From a virus: a stretch of DNA of 25,880 bases. The notes under the pieces were generated by a model. That model was not told the origin of the DNA. It did no database searches and worked only from the letters and a program-made list of their open reading frames with translations. The translations under genes were made by a program, and so were the position numbers. Numbering within the stretch: the stretch's first letter is position 1; the number at the start of each line of letters is the position of its first letter. Shown here piece by piece: positions 782 through 25,880 of this stretch. The stretch covers positions 1-25,880 of the IMG/VR virus record IMGVR_UViG_3300042558_000094; one strand, 5' to 3'.

Positions 782-1110
782 TATGCACTCCAAGGAAGCG
801 GCGGCGATACCACCGGGGGATCAATCTGGTCGTTAATCTGCTGGGCCACATTGGCTTCATAGGCATCGACCTGTTCAGTGCCCATAGCATCTTGCACCCA
901 CCCAAGGACCTGCGCTTCGGTCAGATCGGCATAGGGTGTGAACGGCGCGTCGGGGTCGAGACCCACAGCCTGAGTACCGTAGACATAACCGGTGAACCCG
1001 GCTTCGCTGCCAGTCAGCGTCCAGTGGACGTTGAAGACCACATCGGTCTCGCCATCTTCTTCGGGGTATGCGTCCATCTGCACGACGGCCCAAGTGTTGG
1101 TAATAGCCAT
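781..1110 (-). CDS. Conserved phage protein following the tail fibre
   Basis: 109 aa starting MAITNTWAVVQMDAYPEEDG. The open frame extends 10 codons upstream (to 1140), but the ATG at 1108-1110 is chosen because it overlaps the stop of the fibre gene (TAATG) and is preceded by GGAG at good spacing. The central part (VVFNVHWTLTG, then GYVYGTQ, then FTPYADLTEAQVLGWVQDAM) resembles a small family found directly behind tail-fibre genes in many phages. No enzymatic motif is seen. The context suggests a fibre-associated or assembly role, but this is inference. Confidence 0.85.
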   Translation of the reverse strand: MAITNTWAVVQMDAYPEEDGETDVVFNVHWTLTGSEAGFTGYVYGTQAVGLDPDAPFTPYADLTEAQVLGWVQDAMGTEQVDAYEANVAQQINDQIDPPVVSPPLPWSA

Positions 1111-4100
1111 TAACTTACTCCTGCTCCGGAAATGACCCACACAGTCGACGTCACTTTGAGGACTGTGGCTACACCATATTGAGCCAAGGTGCGGCTCCCG
1201 GTATTAGCTGTCCCCGCCTGACGCAGTGTGTCGGTCGTGATACTTATAGTCTGATTGCTACCGCTGTTGTTAAAGATTGTAACTGCCGAGCCGATGGGGA
1301 ATGCGACCGAGCCATTAGCAGGGATGACCACACCACCAGTCGTGATGCTGATATGCTTACCCATGTCGGACAGAGCCAGTGTGTATGCAGCAGTCTGGCT
1401 GTTCTGCGGTAGACCCTTATAACCGACAGCGTCGGCCAAGTTCGAAGATGTAATGCCGCCTGTGGAGGTGATGCGGAAGTTCTCTACACCCGCCGCGCCA
1501 AAGGCAAGCTGGCTGCCGCCAAACTGGGCGATGATCGAGGTAAGGCCCGCTGTAGTGACAGGGTCAATAGCAACAGCAGTGGAGTTGGTTGCGTCGCTAA
1601 TCCGCGTTATCCCTGCGGCGTGTAGGCGCGAGGCGGGGGAAGTTGTGCCAATCCCAACGTCGCCGTTGGGATATTTTATCGTCAGACGCGCAGTGGTACC
1701 TGCTTCCAAAATCTGGAAATCATCGCCAACCGCCGACACGGTGTAGTTATAGTTCGTCGAAGAACATAGTTTTATGAAGCGGTTAGCGCCGTTGGTCGTA
1801 GCAATGTTGCCCGCGACGGTCAGCAGCTGGTCAGCAGTGGTAGTCCCAATAAGCAGTCGGCCCGTGGAGTCCATCCGCATACGCTCGCTAAACGTACCCG
1901 AGGCCATATGACCAAACCGGATAGTATCACTTGTACCCGTAAAAATCTGAAGCCCAGATGAAGCGGGTGTCCCCATGCCGTAATCAGCGGTGTAGCAGTA
2001 ATAAGAGTTGGTTATTGGTACGTAGGCGTTGCCGTTTACGTGCAGCCTGTGTGACGGGGAAGTGGTGCCGATACCCGTATTACCCGACGAGTCTATAACC
2101 TGCCGTATGGTACCACCTACGGTCACCGAATACCCGGCATTGGACACACCGGATATGTATGGGTTTATGTCTACCGCGTTGCCGCCGACATAGTTAGTAT
2201 TCAGGCGGAAAGCGACCGTACTACCCGCGCTTACGTATGTCTCAAGCTGCGCACCGGGAGCAGAAGTATTGATACCGACAGCACCTCCACTGGTCACGCG
2301 CATGCGCTCCGCACTGTTGGTGAGGAACTGAAGGGTGTTAGCCCCAGTCGCATGTAGTACGAGGTTCGTGGCGTTCGCCAACATCAAAAGGCCACTGCTA
2401 CCATGGATGTAGCCGACTGTGGCCCCCGCCTTACTGATATTTAGCAAGCCGCCATTAGTAGCGTTGTTGAGATCGAGTGTGGTGAAGTTGGTGTAGTTAG
2501 TAGGCGCGGTAGTCCCGATCCCGACATCGCCCGCTGCGGTGATGCGCATGCGCTCGACTTCGCCCGAACCACTGGCGTTGGTCTGGAATGCGAGGGTCGA
2601 TCCTGTGGCGTTATATGAGCCAAGGTTGGTAGCGCCACCAGTTGAGCGCATGGTGAGCACCGTGGCACCGTCTGCGCTGGACGCAATGTTACCAATTACT
2701 GCGAGTTTACCGTAACCAGCCGGTGCGGTAGTTCCGATCCCAACGTCACCCGCTGCGGTGATACGCATGCGCTCAGTATTGGCGGTCTGGAGCCTGAGTA
2801 TGGCGCTACCGCCGGTCGCAAAGGTAGCATTGATATAGGAACCCGAAGCGTCCGCACCCGAAACAAGCTGGTTAGCTCGGGTAGCGTCAGTTTCATGTAG
2901 GGTTAGTGTACCGCCGCTACCGACAGTAGTGCGGATATTTCCGTTTACGTCCAGCCTACCTGTGGGCGTAGTACCAATCCCAACGTTACCCGAGGCGTCG
3001 ATGCGCATACGCTCGGTGCCTACCAATGTAGTAGCAGTCGCAGCGGTGAAGAACTGGATAAGGGTAGCGGAGGTCATCGTCGAGACCCCGCCGCCAACAG
3101 TAATAGCATTAGCGCCTGAGCTTGAGGCAGACATAGCTATGGTAATAGGAGATTGCGCGTTCGTGTAATGGGCAGCGCCAACCACACCGTATTTGGTGGT
3201 CGCATCCGTCGTTACATCTTGCAGGCGAAGCTGGTCAGCGATAGATGAATTTACTACATGCAGCCGAGCAGCTGGCGCAGTTATACCGATCCCGACGTTG
3301 CCGCTGGAATTGATACGCATGCGCTCTACACCGTTTGTGTAGGAGGTTATAGACCTAGAAGGGTCCGCAAGTGTGCGTACCTCATTCGCATCCCAATATA
3401 GGTACCCAGCCCTTGTTGCGTTATTGCGGAACTCAATGCGTGTATCGGCGGAAGTGTTGCTTTCGAAAATGGCATTTATACCGCCCGCACCCCCGTTGGT
3501 ATGTAGCCGCGCCGCAGGTGAGGTGGTACCAATCCCAAAGCTGCCGCCACTGGTAAACTGAGCAATCTCAGTGCTGGAAGCAGATATACGCAGAGCGGTT
3601 CCGTCAAAGCGAAGGCCCGCACCCGCCGGAGCGCCCGTAACCAGTTCTGCTGCGTTACCAAGGTAGGCCGCGTTTGAACCCGCTTGGTCTATACGGACAA
3701 AATTACCGTTTACGTGCAGCCTTGAACTAGGCGAAGTCGTACCAATCCCAACATCACCTGCGCTGGTGATACGCATACGCTCGGCGTTACTGGTACGTAG
3801 CCCCAGAAAGCCACCTCTACGGTTGCCTAGCTCGACATCCGATAGGTTCATGGCGACAAAGAATTGCTCAGAGTCGTTGGTGGTGTTGATGTTGTATATG
3901 CTTATCTGTGAAGTACCGTCCTCCGTGCCATCCTTCACACGAAGCTCTCCAGTGGGTAGCGAATAAACACCAGTGGAATTTTCAGCGAGAGGAGCGCCGA
4001 CACTGAGAATACCCGCTGCGTCGATGCGCGCACGCTCGGAGCCTGCGGTTTGAAACCTAAGTATAGCACTGCCGCCAGTCACAAAGGTAGCATTGATATA

Positions 4101-6068
4101 GGAACCCGAAGCGTCCGCACCGGCCACCATAAGGTTTGCTCGGACAGCGTCCGTCTCATGCAGGGTTAGTGTACCACCGCTACCAACAACAGTACGGATA
4201 CCACCGTTAACACCGAGCCTATCTATGGGGGATGTAGTATTAATTCCGAGGTTGCCTGCGCTGTCGAGGCGCATGCGCTCGGTGTCGCTCCCGCCCCCAC
4301 CCGTCCTAAAGGTGATGAAACCACTATTGGTTGTCGCGCCGTAAGACCGTATCGAGGTCTCGTTGCTACCATATTGGAAAGCAGCTTTGTTCGTCTGCCC
4401 GACAGACAGCGTACCATTAACCATGAGCGCGCCAGCAACATCGAGCCGCGACCCCGGTGAGGTGATCCCGATACCAACGTCACCTGTGTTGGTGATGCGC
4501 ATACGCTCTCCGCGTGTGCTTCCGCTATAAGTGTATAACGCAAGTTCGCTAGCCACGCTGGTGGCAGCGCTATACACTGCCCCAATGCCGGGGCCTTGTA
4601 ATACAAACCCGCTCGTAAAATTGCTGTCTCCAAGGTATATTTGGGAACCAAGCGGAGAACCAACAGATGTCGGTGTGGCTAGTACAGAACGAATACCTGT
4701 TCCTACAACGTCCAACTTCGCACTAGGCCCAGTTGTGCCGATCCCGACATCACCTGCGCTGGTGATGCGCATGCGCTCTGTAGTGCCATTTGTCTGGAAT
4801 GTGAGGTATGAAGCCGTTAGACTAAACGGGATAAAAACTGACCCCGTGCGGTCGTAGGCTTGAATATTTGCGAAGCCCGCGCTTAACGGACTAAGTTCAA
4901 TTCCGTACCCGCCACTGTCGGAAACTTGAAATTTGCTCGCGGGTGATGTGGTGCCAACACCTACATTCCCTGCGCTGGTAATGCGCATGCGCTCGGTGTT
5001 GTTAGTAAAGAAAGCTGTAACGGTAGCCCCCGTGCTACCTATGGCAAGAGGGTTCGCGCCTGAGTTTATGTTAGCACCCGTGAGGAACGGTGTATCGGTG
5101 CTCAGGGTTAGTTTTGGCAGTACTACCGCACCTGTACCCTCAATACGCATGCGTTCGGCGCTATTGGTATCAAATATTAGCGGGAAAGCAGTGGTCGTGC
5201 GTAGGCGCAAAGAGCCGTCCGAAATGCCCTGCATGAAGCTGCCATTTGCGAACTGGAGGTAAGGGTTGCTGGTGCTAGTGTTAGTCAGGAGTATCGAAGC
5301 CGCACCGGAACCACTATTCACAGTGAGTTGCCCTGCACCGCTGGTTGCGTTGATTAAAAAATTGCCCCCGCTGTCGAGGCGCATGCGTTCTGTACCGCCG
5401 GTAAGAAAGGTAAAACCTCCGACGTTGTTACCAGTCGATGCAAGCTGCACGATGTTAGCTGTGGGGTCAGCAGATACCGCAAGTCCGTGCGAGTCTGTCC
5501 CTGCGACGTTAATAGCTTGAAGGACCGCGATCTCCGCCATCGTATCGCTGGCTGGGCTACGGACTTGGAACTGTGACCCGGGATCGACATTCACCCCAAC
5601 CCGGCCATTGCTGCGGATGCGCAGGCGTTCGACACCTGCAGTACTGAGCGCAACAAAGTCAGCGGCGGGGGAGAACATGCCGGTGTTCGTATCCCCAGTG
5701 AAGCTATAGCTGGGGGCTGTTACGGTGCCGAGGGCAGCTGTGATCGAGCCGTCCTGATATACCGCTTTACCGGCAGGGTAGTCGACGAACACGTCCTTGG
5801 TGCCAGCAGAGAAGGTAACCTTGGTCGTGCCGCCTGCGCTAGATGAAAGCACAGTATCACGAGATAGCGTAGTACCTGCAGCGGTGTAGGTGCCGATACC
5901 GACTTCCCACTCCGACCCGCCAGCGATGGTGTAGAAGGTATTGTTGCCGTTGCCGATGGCTGTGCCAAACGTCTGGAACCCAGTAGGTGCAGTCCCGCTG
6001 AGCGTTATGGTGCCGGTACCAGTGGTAGTGGTCGTTTCCCGGACGCGGTCAGCGACGACAAAAGGCAT
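1110..6068 (-). CDS. Giant repeat-built tail fibre / appendage protein
   Basis: 1652 aa, the largest gene. Residues 1 to about 110 (beginning MPFVVADRVRETTTTTGTGT) match the N-terminal module seen on many phage tail fibres, probably the virion-attachment part. The body contains about 19 units built round a motif of the type ERMRITSAGDVGIGTTSP, followed by a variable x-RLHVNG-like strand and then a unit-specific beta-rich insert; spacing is roughly 60-110 residues. The last 100 residues (from KGLPQNSQTAAYTLALSDMG) form a compact Ser/Thr-rich C-terminal domain also common on appendage proteins. No intramolecular chaperone of the endosialidase type is apparent at the C-terminus. The likely role is host receptor binding at the tail. 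The reading frame is intact throughout. It shares one base with each neighbour (TAATG at 6066-6070 and 1108-1112). Confidence 0.93.
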   Translation of the reverse strand: MPFVVADRVRETTTTTGTGTITLSGTAPTGFQTFGTAIGNGNNTFYTIAGGSEWEVGIGTYTAAGTTLSRDTVLSSSAGGTTKVTFSAGTKDVFVDYPAGKAVYQDGSITAALGTVTAPSYSFTGDTNTGMFSPAADFVALSTAGVERLRIRSNGRVGVNVDPGSQFQVRSPASDTMAEIAVLQAINVAGTDSHGLAVSADPTANIVQLASTGNNVGGFTFLTGGTERMRLDSGGNFLINATSGAGQLTVNSGSGAASILLTNTSTSNPYLQFANGSFMQGISDGSLRLRTTTAFPLIFDTNSAERMRIEGTGAVVLPKLTLSTDTPFLTGANINSGANPLAIGSTGATVTAFFTNNTERMRITSAGNVGVGTTSPASKFQVSDSGGYGIELSPLSAGFANIQAYDRTGSVFIPFSLTASYLTFQTNGTTERMRITSAGDVGIGTTGPSAKLDVVGTGIRSVLATPTSVGSPLGSQIYLGDSNFTSGFVLQGPGIGAVYSAATSVASELALYTYSGSTRGERMRITNTGDVGIGITSPGSRLDVAGALMVNGTLSVGQTNKAAFQYGSNETSIRSYGATTNSGFITFRTGGGGSDTERMRLDSAGNLGINTTSPIDRLGVNGGIRTVVGSGGTLTLHETDAVRANLMVAGADASGSYINATFVTGGSAILRFQTAGSERARIDAAGILSVGAPLAENSTGVYSLPTGELRVKDGTEDGTSQISIYNINTTNDSEQFFVAMNLSDVELGNRRGGFLGLRTSNAERMRITSAGDVGIGTTSPSSRLHVNGNFVRIDQAGSNAAYLGNAAELVTGAPAGAGLRFDGTALRISASSTEIAQFTSGGSFGIGTTSPAARLHTNGGAGGINAIFESNTSADTRIEFRNNATRAGYLYWDANEVRTLADPSRSITSYTNGVERMRINSSGNVGIGITAPAARLHVVNSSIADQLRLQDVTTDATTKYGVVGAAHYTNAQSPITIAMSASSSGANAITVGGGVSTMTSATLIQFFTAATATTLVGTERMRIDASGNVGIGTTPTGRLDVNGNIRTTVGSGGTLTLHETDATRANQLVSGADASGSYINATFATGGSAILRLQTANTERMRITAAGDVGIGTTAPAGYGKLAVIGNIASSADGATVLTMRSTGGATNLGSYNATGSTLAFQTNASGSGEVERMRITAAGDVGIGTTAPTNYTNFTTLDLNNATNGGLLNISKAGATVGYIHGSSGLLMLANATNLVLHATGANTLQFLTNSAERMRVTSGGAVGINTSAPGAQLETYVSAGSTVAFRLNTNYVGGNAVDINPYISGVSNAGYSVTVGGTIRQVIDSSGNTGIGTTSPSHRLHVNGNAYVPITNSYYCYTADYGMGTPASSGLQIFTGTSDTIRFGHMASGTFSERMRMDSTGRLLIGTTTADQLLTVAGNIATTNGANRFIKLCSSTNYNYTVSAVGDDFQILEAGTTARLTIKYPNGDVGIGTTSPASRLHAAGITRISDATNSTAVAIDPVTTAGLTSIIAQFGGSQLAFGAAGVENFRITSTGGITSSNLADAVGYKGLPQNSQTAAYTLALSDMGKHISITTGGVVIPANGSVAFPIGSAVTIFNNSGSNQTISITTDTLRQAGTANTGSRTLAQYGVATVLKVTSTVWVISGAGVS
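2807..2943 (-). repeat. Internal duplicated fibre segment, copy 1
   Basis: About 137 bases inside the fibre gene closely match 4067-4203. Within them, 2819-2858 is identical to 4082-4121 over 40 bases. The protein copies both read SGGTLTLHETDA followed by GADASGSYINATF and TGGSAIL. The offset is about 1263 bases (421 codons), so the frame is kept. Confidence 0.85.
4067..4203 (-). repeat. Internal duplicated fibre segment, copy 2
   Basis: Partner of 2807-2943. The two copies are nearly identical in the middle and diverge at the edges, which fits duplication or gene conversion of one insert domain between two repeat units of the fibre. Confidence 0.85.
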
Positions 6069-21760: not shown

Positions 21761-23283
21761 CAGTAATACCCTCTATTGCGGTTCGACCGGAAATACTGGA
21801 TTTCGTCTGGTTCGTCTAGCACAGTAGTCACATAGCCTCCGCGCCTGAACCTGTGCATTGCCATTGATACAGTATCCACATAGTCGTCATGGGTACCTGC
21901 AGGAAACTCAGCTACCTCGTCGATAACTTCCTCGGCCCAGCGGGTAGCTGGTGCCCACACCCGCCCAGAGGCAAATATGTCAGCGACGGCGTTCAGACGG
22001 CTGATCTTGTCATTCCCGCGCGTGGGCGTGAACTCCTGCACCGGTATGCCCATAGACCGCATCTCGTAGATGAGAGGTGCACCTGATGCCTTTTTCTCGA
22101 TGATGACACTGTCCGGGTCCCAGTCGCGGTACTCCTCGATGGCCACCCGCTTCAGCTCGGGGAACTCCATGCGGTCCCGGAAGGCATTCAGGAGGATGAT
22201 ATTGGCCTGCTCGATCCCTGCGTCATCCGGATGGTAAAACACACCCCAAGTTGTACACGCCGAATAGTCGGCACGTTGCGTCTTCTCGAAGGCCGTATCC
22301 CAGCTTTGCAGGATGAAGTCACACTGGGGCGGACTGTCGTCGGGCCACTCCTGCCACCACTCTCTTTTGACGATAGCAGCAGACTCGGACACAGGGTTTT
22401 GCTGGTACTGCGCCATCCACTTGCTGTTAGGGACGTCGCGCTTGACCTTGAGCAGCTCCTCCAGCTCCCAGAACTCGGGCCATAGGGGCTTTTCAGACGG
22501 TAGGATTGCAGGAAACTCGATAACTTCCCACTCGCCAATGCTGTCATTAGCAGCCGCATCTTTGAGGATTTGACCGGTCAGGTCACGCTTGGACCAGCGC
22601 GTCATCACGATAACAATAGAGCCACCGGGCTGCAGACGCTGACGAGGACCGGATGTGTACCACTCGTAGGTCTTATCGTAGATATCTGGGTTAACTTCGG
22701 CCAGCGCAGCTTCCTGCTCCGAGTGCGGGTCGTCAATAATGAGCACGTCAGCACCCTTACCGGTCACCGCACCGCCTATACCAATAGCAAAATAGTCACC
22801 TTGCTTGTTGGTATTCCACCGACCGGCAGCTTTTGAGTCCGATGCCAGCGCCAGATCGGGAAAAATGGTTTTATACGCCTCTGTATCGACCAGATTTCGC
22901 ACTTTACGGCCAAAGCCGACCGCCAATTCAGCCGTATGGGAGCACTGGATGATCTTTTTGTGCGGGTATTTGCCTAAAAACCAAGCAGGAAGCAGATATG
23001 ACGCGAACTCCGACTTGGTATGGCGCGGAGGCATGTTGATAATGAGTCTTTTACACTCCCCGCGCGCCACGCGCTCGAACGCATCGGCCATTTTGGCGTG
23101 GTGTCGCCCTGCAATGAAGCTCGGCCAGACCTCTTGGACGAACTTGAGGAACCTATCTTGGGATAATTTGCGCCGTTTCAGCTCCGACAACTTGTCAAGC
23201 TCGGCTAATAGCTGCTCCTGCTCGTGTATGGGTAACTTATGCAGGATTTTGGGGATGTCAGTGAGGGCGATGTCCTTAATCAT
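21760..23283 (-). CDS. terL: Terminase large subunit
   Basis: 507 aa from ATG at 23281-23283, with GAGGAA seven bases upstream and an 8-base overlap with the small-subunit stop. A TTG 48 bases further upstream would add 16 residues (to 23331) but lacks a better ribosome site. ATPase part: Walker A variant NMPPRHTKSEF (about residues 83-93), Walker B VLIIDDPH (180-187), coupling motif VIVMTRWS (224-231). Nuclease part (RNase H-like): SWDTAF (Asp329), VIIEKKASG (Glu396) and GTHDDYVDT (Asp466/467/470), giving the expected acidic residues. It packages DNA into the procapsid through the portal and cuts the concatemer. All key motifs are intact. The PPRHTKS form of Walker A is common in phages of this group. 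Confidence 0.95.
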   Translation of the reverse strand: MIKDIALTDIPKILHKLPIHEQEQLLAELDKLSELKRRKLSQDRFLKFVQEVWPSFIAGRHHAKMADAFERVARGECKRLIINMPPRHTKSEFASYLLPAWFLGKYPHKKIIQCSHTAELAVGFGRKVRNLVDTEAYKTIFPDLALASDSKAAGRWNTNKQGDYFAIGIGGAVTGKGADVLIIDDPHSEQEAALAEVNPDIYDKTYEWYTSGPRQRLQPGGSIVIVMTRWSKRDLTGQILKDAAANDSIGEWEVIEFPAILPSEKPLWPEFWELEELLKVKRDVPNSKWMAQYQQNPVSESAAIVKREWWQEWPDDSPPQCDFILQSWDTAFEKTQRADYSACTTWGVFYHPDDAGIEQANIILLNAFRDRMEFPELKRVAIEEYRDWDPDSVIIEKKASGAPLIYEMRSMGIPVQEFTPTRGNDKISRLNAVADIFASGRVWAPATRWAEEVIDEVAEFPAGTHDDYVDTVSMAMHRFRRGGYVTTVLDEPDEIQYFRSNRNRGYY

Positions 23284-23887
23284 CGGATTCCTCGTCTTCT
23301 TCCTCGATCTCCTCGTAGTCAGCATCGACAATGGCGATGCCCAGTTCCTCGTCGAGGTCCATACCCAGTGGCTTCATATCTATAACATCCGCATTCAGCA
23401 GGCGTTTGACACGATCCTTGATCGCCTTTTCGAGGCTCTCGGGGCTGTTATAGTTGATATTGATCTCGCTACGCTCAGTGAACAGCCCGATATCCGAGTG
23501 CTTGCCCAGCAGCTCGATGGCTTTCAGCTCGTATTTTATCTCACCGCAGTCGGCTATCTCTAGCAGCTTATTGGTAAGCGCGGTGCGCACTTGAGCCGCG
23601 TCGACCGCCAAGCTACGTCCATATTCCTGCAGGAAACCTCGGGCAGCTGTTGCTGCAGCCGGACTGCGCAGAGCCGTCGCCTTCTTATCCTCGATGGCAC
23701 CTTTGATGAGTTTCTTCTCGCGCTCTAAGTCATCGCTGTCCACCTCAAGGGGTGCACCCAGCTGCTCAAGCAGCTCTGCCGTCATCGCAGTAATCGTCAC
23801 CTCATCCATGAAGGTCGAGGGTTTTTCTTCCTCGGTGGTGTAAGGCACCGGGTGCTCGTCGGTTGGTTCGACTTTAATAACAGGCAT
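23276..23887 (-). CDS. terS: Putative terminase small subunit
   Basis: 203 aa from ATG at 23885-23887. The open frame reaches 24076, but that extension passes through the promoter at 24048-24076 and the hairpin leader, so it cannot be part of the message. No strong ribosome site is seen before this ATG. The sequence has an acidic N-terminus, helices at about 70-125 (SPAAATAARGFLQEYGRSLA, VRTALTNKLLEIADCGEIKY) and the block AIELLGKHSDIGLFTERSEI (124-143) that is typical of small terminase or DNA-recognition proteins, followed by an acidic C-terminus with runs of Glu and Asp. It would recognise the packaging site and load the large subunit, the adjacent gene. The assignment rests on position and the LLGKHSDIGLF block. 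Confidence 0.82.
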   Translation of the reverse strand: MPVIKVEPTDEHPVPYTTEEEKPSTFMDEVTITAMTAELLEQLGAPLEVDSDDLEREKKLIKGAIEDKKATALRSPAAATAARGFLQEYGRSLAVDAAQVRTALTNKLLEIADCGEIKYELKAIELLGKHSDIGLFTERSEININYNSPESLEKAIKDRVKRLLNADVIDMKPLGMDLDEELGIAIVDADYEEIEEEDEESDD

Positions 23888-23958
23888 GTGCGCAGCGTCC
23901 GGTTTGAGGGAGCAGATGCGCCTTATAACTGCGAGAGCAGGAGGAAGTAAAGAGGGAA

Positions 23959-23992
23959 GGGGGCACCAGCTTAGCGACAAGCTAGCACCCCC
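23959..23992 (-). promoter_or_regulatory. Leader hairpin in the terminase transcript
   Basis: Arms 23959-23972 and 23979-23992 with a 6-base loop. On the plus strand three positions mismatch, but on the minus-strand RNA all 14 positions pair because those three become G-U wobbles. That strand bias points to a structure selected in the leftward RNA, between the promoter and the small terminase start. It may be a leader stabiliser, an attenuator or a protein-binding site; there is no U-run, so it is not a standard terminator. Confidence 0.6.
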
Positions 23993-24047
23993 AAGTTTCC
24001 GAGGGGAAAACCCAGAACCGATAAGCTCTCGGGAGGAAACGTCACAC

Positions 24048-24076
24048 ATAATACCCCCCGGGGCAAAAAGCGTCAA
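24048..24076 (-). promoter_or_regulatory. Sigma70-type promoter for the packaging/structural operon
   Basis: On the minus strand the -35 box TTGACG (24071-24076) and -10 box TATTAT (24048-24053) are separated by exactly 17 bases. Five of six positions match consensus in each box. Transcription would start near 24041 and leave a leader of about 150 bases before the small terminase gene. Confidence 0.75.
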
Positions 24077-24219
24077 GGTACCATTGACGGGGGGTCTCCC
24101 TGTGTGAGGGGGTGGGGGTGTATATTCTCAAAATTGTGTCGTCGGACGTGCAAAATAGTAAGTAGAAGGGAAGCGGCGGAGTCCCATACCAGCCTTGGGG
24201 GGTCGGGGGCCGGTGGGGT

Positions 24220-24240
24220 CAGCCGTGGCACGTGCCACGC
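24220..24240. repeat. CACGTG palindrome site, copy A
   Basis: Contains the perfect 16-bp palindrome CGTGGCACGTGCCACG (24224-24239) within 21 bases identical to copies at 25560-25580 and 25644-25664. It lies in the divergent region between the leftward promoter and the rightward gene. A dimeric DNA-binding protein would be the expected ligand. Confidence 0.85.
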
Positions 24241-24308
24241 ATAGCCACCCCATGTCATTGAAAACACTAGGTTTTCTGCGGCTTTCCAGCGTGTGACAAA
24301 GTTTAACA

Positions 24309-24337
24309 TTGTAAATCCATCCAGCCTAGGCCATAAC
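24309..24337 (+). promoter_or_regulatory. Weak candidate promoter for the right-end module
   Basis: TTGTAA (24309-24314), 17-base spacer, CATAAC (24332-24337), four of six consensus positions in each box, about 60 bases upstream of the first plus-strand gene. It is the best match found in this interval but is weak; a phage-specific activator or other sigma factor cannot be excluded. Confidence 0.3.
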
Positions 24338-24399
24338 AAAATGGTCAACGGGACATTCGGTTCCAGCGACACTCAACAATCCATATTGGAGTATATGTT

Positions 24400-25086
24400 A
24401 TGTCTACACGTAAAGCCGCTGCGCCTGCAGCATCTGTCGCAGCTCTTGCAGTTGCATCGCCCGAAATCACCATGGTTTTCGATCATGCTGCTATCATCAC
24501 GGAATTAAACGGAACTACATCCGCACAAGAACGGATGCTAGTCCTATCGAAATATACGATGGGTGAAGTTGCCGCTGTTGGCGGTCGACTGGCAAGCATG
24601 GTTGAGTCGGTATACGAAACGCTAAACCTCAAAATGGTCGAGCGGCACGGCGCTGACTGGACGAAAATCCATCGTGCATCGCCAAGCGAATTGCCGGATG
24701 CTGATAAGACGCGGCGCAAGGCAATAAACGCCTGTCTCGAATCCATCCGCGAGACAGTCAAAGCCAACAGCGGCGGCAACAATGACAAGGCGCGCGATGT
24801 ATTGCGCCGTGTCAAGGAATGGGGTGACGGAACACGCACTAACAAGGCGTCGAAACCCAAAGCCAATGCCAAAGATGACATTGAAACGTGGGCGGCCAAA
24901 TGGGACAATTTCCCCACTATGATTCGCCGCATCATGAACGATGATATGGATGGAGTATCGCCTGAACGCAGCGATGCACTAGGGGCTGTTGCGGATGCAA
25001 TGCTTTACTATTTCAAACTGCGTAACATCAGCGAGAGAGCAGTGCGCGATTGTTCCGGCAAAGCGGAATGGCCGCATAGCAAATAA
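24400..25086 (+). CDS. Unrecognised 228-aa protein
   Basis: Starts MSTRKAAAPAASVAALAVAS with GGAG eight bases before the ATG (24388-24391). After an Ala-rich N-terminus, the body looks largely helical: ERMLVLSKYTMGEVAAVGGR, LASMVESVYETLNLKMVERH, TRRKAINACLESIRETVKAN, ARDVLRRVKEWGDGTRTNKA, then a basic linker (SKPKANAKDDIETWAAKWDN) and DALGAVADAMLYYFKLRNIS at the end. No membrane segment, signal peptide or known motif was seen. It is on the opposite strand from the virion operon and heads a three-gene unit. It could be an early or regulatory protein, or a DNA-binding protein, but no family was recognised. Confidence 0.85.
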   Translation: MSTRKAAAPAASVAALAVASPEITMVFDHAAIITELNGTTSAQERMLVLSKYTMGEVAAVGGRLASMVESVYETLNLKMVERHGADWTKIHRASPSELPDADKTRRKAINACLESIRETVKANSGGNNDKARDVLRRVKEWGDGTRTNKASKPKANAKDDIETWAAKWDNFPTMIRRIMNDDMDGVSPERSDALGAVADAMLYYFKLRNISERAVRDCSGKAEWPHSK

Positions 25087-25093
25087 TAACCTA

Positions 25094-25120
25094 GGGGCCG
25101 CGCAAGCGGCCCCGCCTTTT
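25094..25120 (+). terminator. GNRA-capped hairpin, probable partial terminator or attenuator
   Basis: Perfect 8-bp stem GGGGCCGC (25094-25101) with GCGGCCCC (25106-25113) closed by a GCAA tetraloop, followed by GCCTTTT. The T-run is short and offset, so it probably reduces rather than stops transcription into the next two genes, or protects the 3' end of the first message. Confidence 0.6.
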
Positions 25121-25132
25121 GGAGTAAAGACA

Positions 25133-25363
25133 ATGACAATGGTATATCTCGCAAACGTCCCAAGCGCCGAAACGACTTGGGGCATTGAATGCTACACGCA
25201 ACACGCACACGTTTCGATTGATTTCCCTAGCGACGAAATCCCTAGCTACGCAGTCTTGATGCACTGGCCACAGCCGCGCGGCGGCTGGCCAGTCAGAACG
25301 TTCAAACGTTTTGATGACGCGATGGATTTCGCATCAAGCTTTCTCAAACAATCGGAGGCTTGA
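25133..25363 (+). CDS. Unrecognised 76-aa protein
   Basis: The frame is open from 24989, but the ATG at 25133 is chosen because GGAG (25121-25124) lies eight bases before it, just behind the hairpin. The protein starts MTMVYLANVPSAETTWGIEC and contains YTQHAHVSIDFPSDEIPSYA, HWPQPRGGWPVRTFKRFDDA and a final helix MDFASSFLKQSEA. It looks like a small alpha/beta domain with no known motif. It lies 46 bases behind the first gene of the module and two bases before the next ATG. No function recognised. Confidence 0.78.
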   Translation: MTMVYLANVPSAETTWGIECYTQHAHVSIDFPSDEIPSYAVLMHWPQPRGGWPVRTFKRFDDAMDFASSFLKQSEA

Positions 25364-25365
25364 CC

Positions 25366-25449
25366 ATGCAGATAGAGTTTTACGTTGTCGTGCTGCTATT
25401 CGCTTGCATGGCCATAATCGCGCTGGATGACATAGTCACCAAACGCTAA
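25366..25449 (+). CDS. 27-aa single-pass membrane peptide
   Basis: ATG at 25366-25368, TAA at 25447-25449, with GGAGG (25354-25358) seven bases upstream. The peptide begins MQIEFYVVVLLFACMAIIAL and ends DDIVTKR, that is one hydrophobic helix of about 16 residues with a short charged tail. A very small membrane peptide like this could modulate a host membrane protein, but nothing specific can be said. The excellent ribosome site and the terminator 8 bases after the stop support it as a real gene. Confidence 0.65.
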   Translation: MQIEFYVVVLLFACMAIIALDDIVTKR

Positions 25450-25457
25450 TCGCATCA

Positions 25458-25487
25458 CCCCACTGGTTTCGGCCAGTGGGGTTTTTT
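25458..25487 (+). terminator. Strong intrinsic terminator of the right-end module
   Basis: Perfect 9-bp stem CCCCACTGG (25458-25466) with CCAGTGGGG (25473-25481), loop tttcgg, followed directly by six T. It lies eight bases behind the stop of the 27-aa gene and ends the three-gene unit. Confidence 0.92.
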
Positions 25488-25508
25488 GTGTCCGCAATCC
25501 GCGCGGCC

Positions 25509-25524
25509 ATGACAGTTCCTTGAT
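25509..25524. repeat. 16-base direct repeat, isolated copy
   Basis: ATGACAGTTCCTTGAT, identical to 25587-25602 and 25671-25686. This copy lacks the palindrome in front and the following GAGGGGCCT, so it looks like a partial unit. Confidence 0.85.
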
Positions 25525-25559
25525 TAGGCGACTAGCGTGATAGGAGCAGGCGGATCAGC

Positions 25560-25611
25560 CAGCCGTGGCACGTGCCACGCGTAGCCATGACAGTTCCTTG
25601 ATGAGGGGCCT
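25560..25611. repeat. 52-base composite repeat, unit 1
   Basis: Palindrome CGTGGCACGTGCCACG at 25564-25579 followed at fixed distance by ATGACAGTTCCTTGAT and GAGGGGCCT. It matches 25644-25695 at 49 of 52 positions; the three differences lie between the palindrome and the direct repeat. Confidence 0.9.
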
Positions 25612-25643
25612 AGCCATACGTGGCTACCCATAGAAACGATACC

Positions 25644-25695
25644 CAGCCGTGGCACGTGCCACGCGTGACTATGACAGTTCCTTGATGAGGGGCCT
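25644..25695. repeat. 52-base composite repeat, unit 2
   Basis: Second full unit, palindrome at 25648-25663. Unit starts are 84 bases apart (eight helical turns), so bound proteins would lie on the same DNA face. Confidence 0.9.
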
Positions 25696-25715
25696 CTTGC
25701 GGCAGTGTCGCTCGG

Positions 25716-25744
25716 CGGTAGGCAGGACCTGCCTACCGTTTTTT
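25716..25744 (+). terminator. Second intrinsic terminator without an upstream gene
   Basis: Perfect 10-bp stem CGGTAGGCAG (25716-25725) with CTGCCTACCG (25729-25738), 3-base loop, then six T. No gene lies between it and the previous terminator about 230 bases upstream, so it may end a non-coding transcript starting in the repeat region. Confidence 0.85.
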
Positions 25745-25764
25745 GACCCCTTCGTCAACCCCCG

Positions 25765-25866
25765 TTTGTAATGTGAGTAAAATAGGGCTTTGTAAGTAGC
25801 TAATGTGAGAAACTTTCCTAGGATTTCTGCGCTTTGTATAAAGTGAGTAAAGGTTGAAGTGTGAAA
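25765..25866. repeat. Short GTGAG-type repeats in AT-richer DNA
   Basis: The core GTGAG occurs at 25773, 25805 and 25843 in the contexts AATGTGAGTAAA, AATGTGAGAAAC and AAAGTGAGTAAA, with a degenerate fourth copy AGTGTGAAAA near 25859. TTTGTA precedes the first and third at short distance. They could be iterons, operator sites or promoter elements. Confidence 0.5.
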
Positions 25867-25880
25867 AGCCGTAGCGGCTG

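Follow-up and report, generated by a model that had tools for sequence, protein, structure and literature searches.

A candidate early-region regulator in an exchangeable gene slot beside the terminase genes of metagenomic phages, and the palindromes that track it

The repressor of the temperate phage phiC31 has many palindromic inverted-repeat sites over the early region, and chromosomal ParB pairs with parS, a 16-bp palindrome with CACGTG at its centre. Silencing of early genes through distributed operators is known mainly from temperate mycobacteriophages. Passages of two reports on the cluster A phages, among them L5 and TipsytheTRex, describe one repressor with more than 20 sites through the genome, located at promoters and in short intergenic spaces, and site motifs that vary between phages together with the repressors (PMC9283540, PMC6550527). 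Each such site, or stoperator, is a 13-mer without symmetry that is oriented with transcription and binds a repressor monomer. We describe here a phage locus in which one kind of palindrome goes with one gene, and compare it with these systems; a literature search found no description of such a system.

The stretch of DNA analysed, hereafter the window, corresponds to an IMG/VR virus record that is linear, 25,880 bases long and ends at position 25880. Leftwards from 23887 its - strand carries a TerS-like gene, TerL, portal and major capsid genes, and three genes lie on the + strand, opposite to these structural genes: A (24400-25086, 228 aa), B (25133-25363, 76 aa) and C (25366-25449), a hydrophobic peptide of 27 aa (GRAVY 1.45). 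The ORF list gives longer versions of B and C with upstream starts; read directly, TGGAG, TTGGAG and CGGAGG closely precede the ATGs of A, B and C, which confirms an earlier note on this DNA in its account of three genes of these lengths with good ribosome sites. The strong terminator that it placed at the end of the unit is there too, as an intrinsic terminator with an 11-bp stem and a T run after C (25457-25482, + strand). A second terminator-like hairpin, GGTAGGCAGG-A-CCTGCCTACC followed by a T run, lies at 25717-25737 (+ strand), a similar one occupies the same position in contig L096 by eye, and terminator-like sites in 22800-25880 are above shuffles (8 against a shuffle mean of 2.9). The divergent promoter region of the earlier note was confirmed on the TerS side: a promoter-like site directed towards TerS, TTGACG-17-TATTAT, lies on the - strand (24048-24076, read from 24076 to 24048), and by eye L022 has a similar TTGACA...TATTAT, but promoter-like sites in 22800-25880 show no excess (4 against a shuffle mean of 2.6). 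The leader of A (24113-24399, + strand), read directly and compared by eye with L003, L012 and L090, presumably includes its promoter region; no promoter hexamers for A were identified in it. The neighbouring gene, which we take from its sequence to be TerS (23279-23887, - strand, 203 aa), has no TerS match in Pfam or PHROGs; it precedes TerL, its homologs adjoin TerL in relatives, and it is the constant neighbour of the position that A occupies, here called the slot. At the far end of the window, 1110-6068 encodes a probable tail fibre of 1652 aa, in which TERMRI and VGIGTTSP-like words recur in numerous diverged repeats.

Homologs of A, 49-59% identical to that of the window, are encoded by viral contigs L003 (with near-copies L005 and L092), L012, L090 and L096. 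None of A, B and C has a significant match in Pfam or PHROGs, and none matches a PADLOC defence model at E up to 1. A search of PDB sequences gave nothing convincing for A, the best rows being chaperonin fragments at E 0.64. The earlier note's description of the genes as unrecognised stands: Pfam, PHROGs and PDB sequences gave no significant match to a known protein of replication or virion structure. We set aside the idea that A is a structural protein, which is unsupported given the lack of a structural match and the opposite strand. The bacterial and archaeal genome collection holds no relative of A, and the ‘phages’ collection gave nothing by blastn of the region or by tblastn of A and its L003 homolog. 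In that collection the related Pelagibacter phage HTVC027P, phage 023Pt_psg01 and Phage DSL-LC04 (TerL 55-57% identical, genomes of 57.6-61.5 kb) show no A homolog by tblastn; 023Pt_psg01 has a GP88 protein in the region corresponding to the slot, and HTVC027P has one GTTTCACGTGAAAC in the stretch examined. The AlphaFold2 model of A is all-helical (mean pLDDT 75.7), with helices at 42-49, 54-63 and 68-83, and a helix-turn-helix reading of residues 42-83 of this model is only suggestive; the protein has 35 K+R against 31 D+E, a small net charge. Comparison of the model with PDB and BFVD folds gave no convincing match, nor did comparison of the large slot family described below with PDB folds, and for A this does not itself show a new fold.

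The hexamer CACGTG, which the earlier note had seen flanking the unit, is rarer in the window than chance would have it (3 copies against 9.1 expected), and we rejected it as an enriched motif; the flanking copies stand as parts of something larger, all three being centres of one perfect 16-bp palindrome, CGTGGCACGTGCCACG. The copies, at 24224-24239 (160 nt ahead of A's ATG), 25564-25579 (past the terminator) and 25648-25663 (the identical 16 bp), all lie in the last 2 kb; for the general class of CGTGGCACGTGCCACG, 0.0022 sites are expected in the window against the three found, and the 23.9 kb of structural genes hold none. A second repeat, TGACAGTTCCTTGATnAGG, is present beside the palindromes in three copies (25510, 25588 and 25672), and by eye similar copies follow the same terminator in L003, L090 and L096. 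A different palindrome, AAACCCTAGGGTTT, stands ahead of A in L003 (2600), L012 (1152) and L096 (4759) and, imperfectly, in the window near 24266. Beyond the unit, noncoding stretches (window 25769-25851, L003 1008-1330, L090 4930-5260) carry repeated GTGAGTAAA/TTACTAAC-like words and TTTCTGCG..TTTG elements, and are perhaps promoters or a replication origin.

The A-bearing contigs share one kind of palindrome, in the forms CGTGGCACGTGCCACG, CGTTGCACGTGCAACG, CGTGGTATATACCACG, CGTGGTACGTACCACG, CGTGGTGCATACCACG and CGTGGTACATACCACG, with the class consensus CGTKG-N6-CMACG, that is, CGT(G/T)G-N6-C(A/C)ACG. The arms covary among these contigs (CGTGG with CCACG, CGTTG with CAACG), and the six central bases alternate pyrimidine and purine in every copy except L090:6520, a match to the looser pattern that lies within an ORF; the looser pattern also matches L047 and L050 once each, inside the TerL match and again without alternation. 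Alternating centres of this kind would resemble operators that are read partly via DNA shape. A site lies 138-160 nt ahead of A in seven of the eight A contigs, the exception being L143. There A has a split reading frame (3622-4291) behind a short leader, through either mutation or an assembly fault, although four palindromes remain. The window has three sites and L090 and L092 six each, every one of them on the early side, which is only partly covered in these contigs; L012, L132 and L139 have a single site each in the stretch examined. In L090, four sites are followed by a called start codon at a distance of 20-38 nt, and one of these four falls within the last part of the gene before it; another site lies ahead of A and another after the terminator. 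Both L090 and L092 have one site that is more than 500 nt from any called gene start.

Among 45 TerS-bearing contigs, CGTKG-N6-CMACG sites were present in 8/8 with A and in 0/37 without it; at least 1.3 kb beyond TerS was required, 23 duplicate, near-copy or same-record loci were left out, and the 37 still include some near-copies. Three of the eight (the window, L012, L090, L092, L096, L132, L139 and L143) were found via the palindrome and five were not. As a prediction test, viral contigs were scanned for four exact palindromes, which brought in contigs not found through A: A is encoded by those that belong to this TerL clade and include the slot (L132, L139 and L143), and L140 ends in a partial A. 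Fifteen other stretches fetched in this way (13 new loci, L002 and L006) have one site each and no TerL, TerS or A in the stretch, and these single sites are probably mostly chance. The 52-kb record of L008, also found by palindrome, has CGTGG sites before what we take to be a MoxR-like gene and before another early gene, and has no A, TerS or TerL; since it starts 212 nt before its first site, its slot is probably not covered. L134 and L136 are two stretches of one contig; each has a palindrome, and neither has A or TerL. Judged by TerS the A-phages are close and may form one clade, so that A versus not-A amounts to about one contrast, and independent contrasts have to come from the other slot swaps. 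Among the phages compared A is confined to the CGTKG class, as are some other small ORFs.

The earlier note had treated A, B and C as a compact autonomous unit and proposed checking whether they always co-occur. Autonomy is not upheld, because the record stops at 25880 and in L090 and L092 the same strand runs on into about 10 kb of early genes with palindromes of this kind. Nor are the three genes a fixed set. B is present in five of the eight A-bearing contigs (the window, L012, L092, L096 and L143) and was not found in L090, and the sequence examined of L132 and L139 ends 0.3 kb past A; it also occurs, without A, near the gene of another slot family in L094, L095, L097 and L099. For C no homolog was found in any other locus examined, its 27 aa making a weak query.

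The slot beside TerS usually holds one gene of about 150-310 aa, from one of several families; L084 and the L095 record have two copies, and none was recognised in L037. The largest group, 23 ORFs of 22 loci, forms one blastp cluster whose subgroups are also linked by hhalign (members include L095, L097, L099, L075, L087 and L111:11676-12182), and two other slot groups, c16 and c19, are weakly related by hhalign. By sequence A may be a remote relative of this large slot family: the hhalign score is 23.2-24.5 depending on alignment mode (probability 5.5-8%, or 17% against the subgroup big3 alone), compared with 20.9 for the best of 60 column shuffles; none of six other slot groups scored above 16.3. 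Elsewhere the slot encodes an ArdC-type anti-restriction protein (L038, with ArdcN and MPTase-PolyVal domains, and L009 and L035, which cluster with it), a phrog_2554-type protein (L043) or a GP88 protein (L089), the last two of unknown function. The two slot-gene copies of L084 are diverged (174 and 169 aa), each with a CGTTAC-N3-GTAACG palindrome some 120 nt upstream. An ORF of 117-138 aa, presumably of HNH-endonuclease style, lies between TerS and the slot in L003, L012, L022, L096 and L143 and is missing in the window.

TAAC sites (TAAC-N3-GTTA or TAACATGTTA, two or more) occur in 16/21 large-family contigs against 1/20 others, the sole outsider being L034, with a c16 slot gene and two TAAC matches. 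The large-family members without them are L028 (1.5 kb examined), L084 and the subgroup big3, in which the palindromes are TAACC-N2-GGTTA (L041 and L042) and TCTCAC-N4-GTGAGA (L066). Members of c19 differ from one another, L061 having GAGACGTCTC and L019 CTTAC-N4-GTAAG, six copies each. With the ArdC-type, phrog_2554-type and GP88 slot genes (L009, L035, L038, L043 and L089) no palindrome family of at least three copies was found, in 17-18 kb for L038 and L043 and 1.8 kb for L035. On a TerS+TerL tree the palindromes follow the slot gene over descent in several places: L061, L064 and L071 are nested among TAAC phages and have other slot genes and no TAAC sites (1.4 kb for L071), and L066, a divergent large-family member, is also without TAAC sites. 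The tree label ‘none’ is no proof of absence, since 12-mers or 6-base arms missed the palindromes of L023, of which five-base arms found six; for L003 the label was set by the TAAC pattern, and L003 has CGTGG sites. The position of L016 beside the window in the tree depends on a long branch. When 23 phages were compared over the first 3.0-7.5 kb of their early regions, the large slot family proved to be the only family present in all 10 TAAC-class phages and absent elsewhere, that is, from the CGTKG, GAGAC, CTTAC, CTCAAC, GTAAC and GCTAA classes and from site-less phages. Some contigs fit poorly, namely L034, L084, L066 and family c16.

Three contigs of 60-64 kb (G003, G005 and G006, the records of L095, L097 and L099) contain 19, 17 and 14 TAAC-N3-GTTA matches; one site of G005, in the terminal repeat, is counted twice, leaving 16 distinct. 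Within the 11.6-kb early region beside the slot lie 18/19, 14/16 and 14/14 of the distinct sites, against 0.12-0.15 expected, and their spacing is regular (mean 584-703 nt, CV 0.24-0.36) in these three related, not independent, contigs. Called ORFs contain 8/18, 7/14 and 8/14 of them, and the N3 centres occur in both orientations to transcription (AAA 4-6 and TTT 2-3 per contig). Depending on the phage, CGTGG, TAAC or GAGACGTCTC sites stand before the MoxR-like gene, and in L030 CTCAACCAGTTGAG does; L064 has two unrelated hairpins, one before this gene and one before another early gene, and the MoxR leader of L066 has no palindrome of its own class. In L090 (7383-9696) the presumed MoxR-like ATPase is followed by a 411-aa protein with what we take to be a von Willebrand-like motif, an arrangement kept in five long records compared. 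Integrase (PF00589) was found in 0/9 records, several of them fragments, and in 14/14 control genomes, so that classical lysogenic immunity would lack a lysogeny gene here. PF00940, the T7-like RNA polymerase, considered as a source of repeated promoter-like sites, was found in 0/9 records, a negative that carries no weight, as the control also found none.

That relatives with A carry matching palindromes, while relatives with other slot genes mostly have different palindromes or none, points to A as an early-gene regulator. What is observed is that the sites exist, where they lie and that they covary with the slot gene; from this we draw a reading that we hold with middling confidence: A would be a sequence-specific DNA-binding regulator of the phage early region, acting at many operators in stoperator-like repression, shut-off or immunity. 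We infer that A, probably as a dimer, recognises CGT(G/T)G-N6-C(A/C)ACG and that, once bound, it would keep early transcription from starting or from proceeding, in the manner of a stoperator repressor. The sites ahead of A suggest autoregulation, and those before and inside early genes suggest early-region silencing; the late genes examined showed no site. The outcome would be an early-to-late shut-off and/or an infected cell's immunity to phages that share these sites, and immunity fits the joint exchange of slot gene and site class, the slot presumably being swapped between related phages, usually with its site class, as an immunity cassette would be. A broader and more tentative possibility, to which we lean less, is that this one fixed locus is an immunity-like cassette occupied by several hitherto unrecognised DNA-binding families with palindrome classes of their own across the early region (perhaps ten, several of them with two or three copies only), which would divide close relatives among these phages into many incompatible immunity or early-silencing groups.

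The earlier note had favoured an accessory or exclusion role, a fair guess given the lack of a known-protein or PADLOC match and an exchangeable slot that includes an ArdC-type protein. The exchangeable slot and its ArdC-type occupants bear out part of that guess, and the palindromes point elsewhere: they track the slot gene, and this strongest signal favours a protein that regulates the phage's own early genes over one that acts in defence. We therefore think it quite unlikely that A is an accessory host-takeover or anti-defence protein and that the palindromes are operators of some other regulator; a position shared with ArdC-type, phrog_2554-type and GP88 proteins fits this alternative, but the contigs with those proteins lack a palindrome family of at least three copies, which A contigs and most large-family contigs have, and this ties the sites to A and the large-family slot proteins. 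Ribbon-helix-helix (RHH) proteins bind inverted repeats, and a 59-aa protein in the early region of A-phages L090 and L092 is presumably RHH by sequence style, so another slot-linked phage protein of this sort could bind the palindromes while A does otherwise; several other small ORFs are likewise confined to L090 and L092 among the phages compared. We examined the 59-aa protein as the binder and set it aside, as it was seen at first only in A-phages and then across site classes: it has homologs in TAAC-site phages (48-52% identity) and in G013 and G014, which have no repeated sites, and G009 has CGTGG sites and no RHH-like homolog in the 52 kb examined. Since early families found in more than four phages cross site classes, the large slot family excepted, a binder other than the slot protein seems to us quite improbable.

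Two further alternatives take the palindromes out of transcriptional control. The sites could be RNA hairpins in leaders, acting in translation control or mRNA stability, with A unrelated or RNA-binding; many end about 10-50 nt before a start codon, a CGUGG/CCACG stem can fold by eye, and the two different, unrelated hairpins before two L064 genes leave room for an RNA role. We nevertheless consider this very unlikely, since the central bases too are palindromic in most copies, TAAC-N3 centres face both ways relative to transcription, TAAC sites often lie within called ORFs (the 8/18, 7/14 and 8/14 above), and L090 and L092 each have a site more than 500 nt from starts. Alternatively the palindromes could form a centromere-like or chromatin-like set serving partition, DNA organisation or replication, with A a ParB-like or nucleoid-like protein. 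The regular spacing (CV 0.24-0.36) inside one 10-kb region would suit such a set, as would the CACGTG centre of parS and the GTTTCACGTGAAAC of HTVC027P; but neither Pfam nor PHROGs gave A a match to ParB or a similar domain, and the sites of A-phages are often near start codons (4/6 and 3/6 within 60 nt), and we regard a partition-like role as unlikely.

If A is indeed an early-region regulator, distributed-operator silencing would extend to phages known mostly from metagenomes, in whose records no integrase was found; new protein families with exchanged specificities would supply new repressor/operator pairs, and the site classes would predict which related phages can co-infect one cell. The sites resemble stoperators in being numerous and near-identical, but number 3, 6 and 6 here, in incomplete early regions, against the more than 20 given for L5 in the passages cited. 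Unlike stoperators, they are perfect or near-perfect palindromes and lie on the early side, in phages with no integrase found; the one comparison made of A with the stoperator repressor, the PDB sequence search with A, listed no such chain. CGTGGCACGTGCCACG and parS have the CACGTG centre in common and differ in their outer bases. The likeness to the phiC31 repressor system, as generally described rather than by sequence comparison, lies in many palindromic sites spread over the early region.
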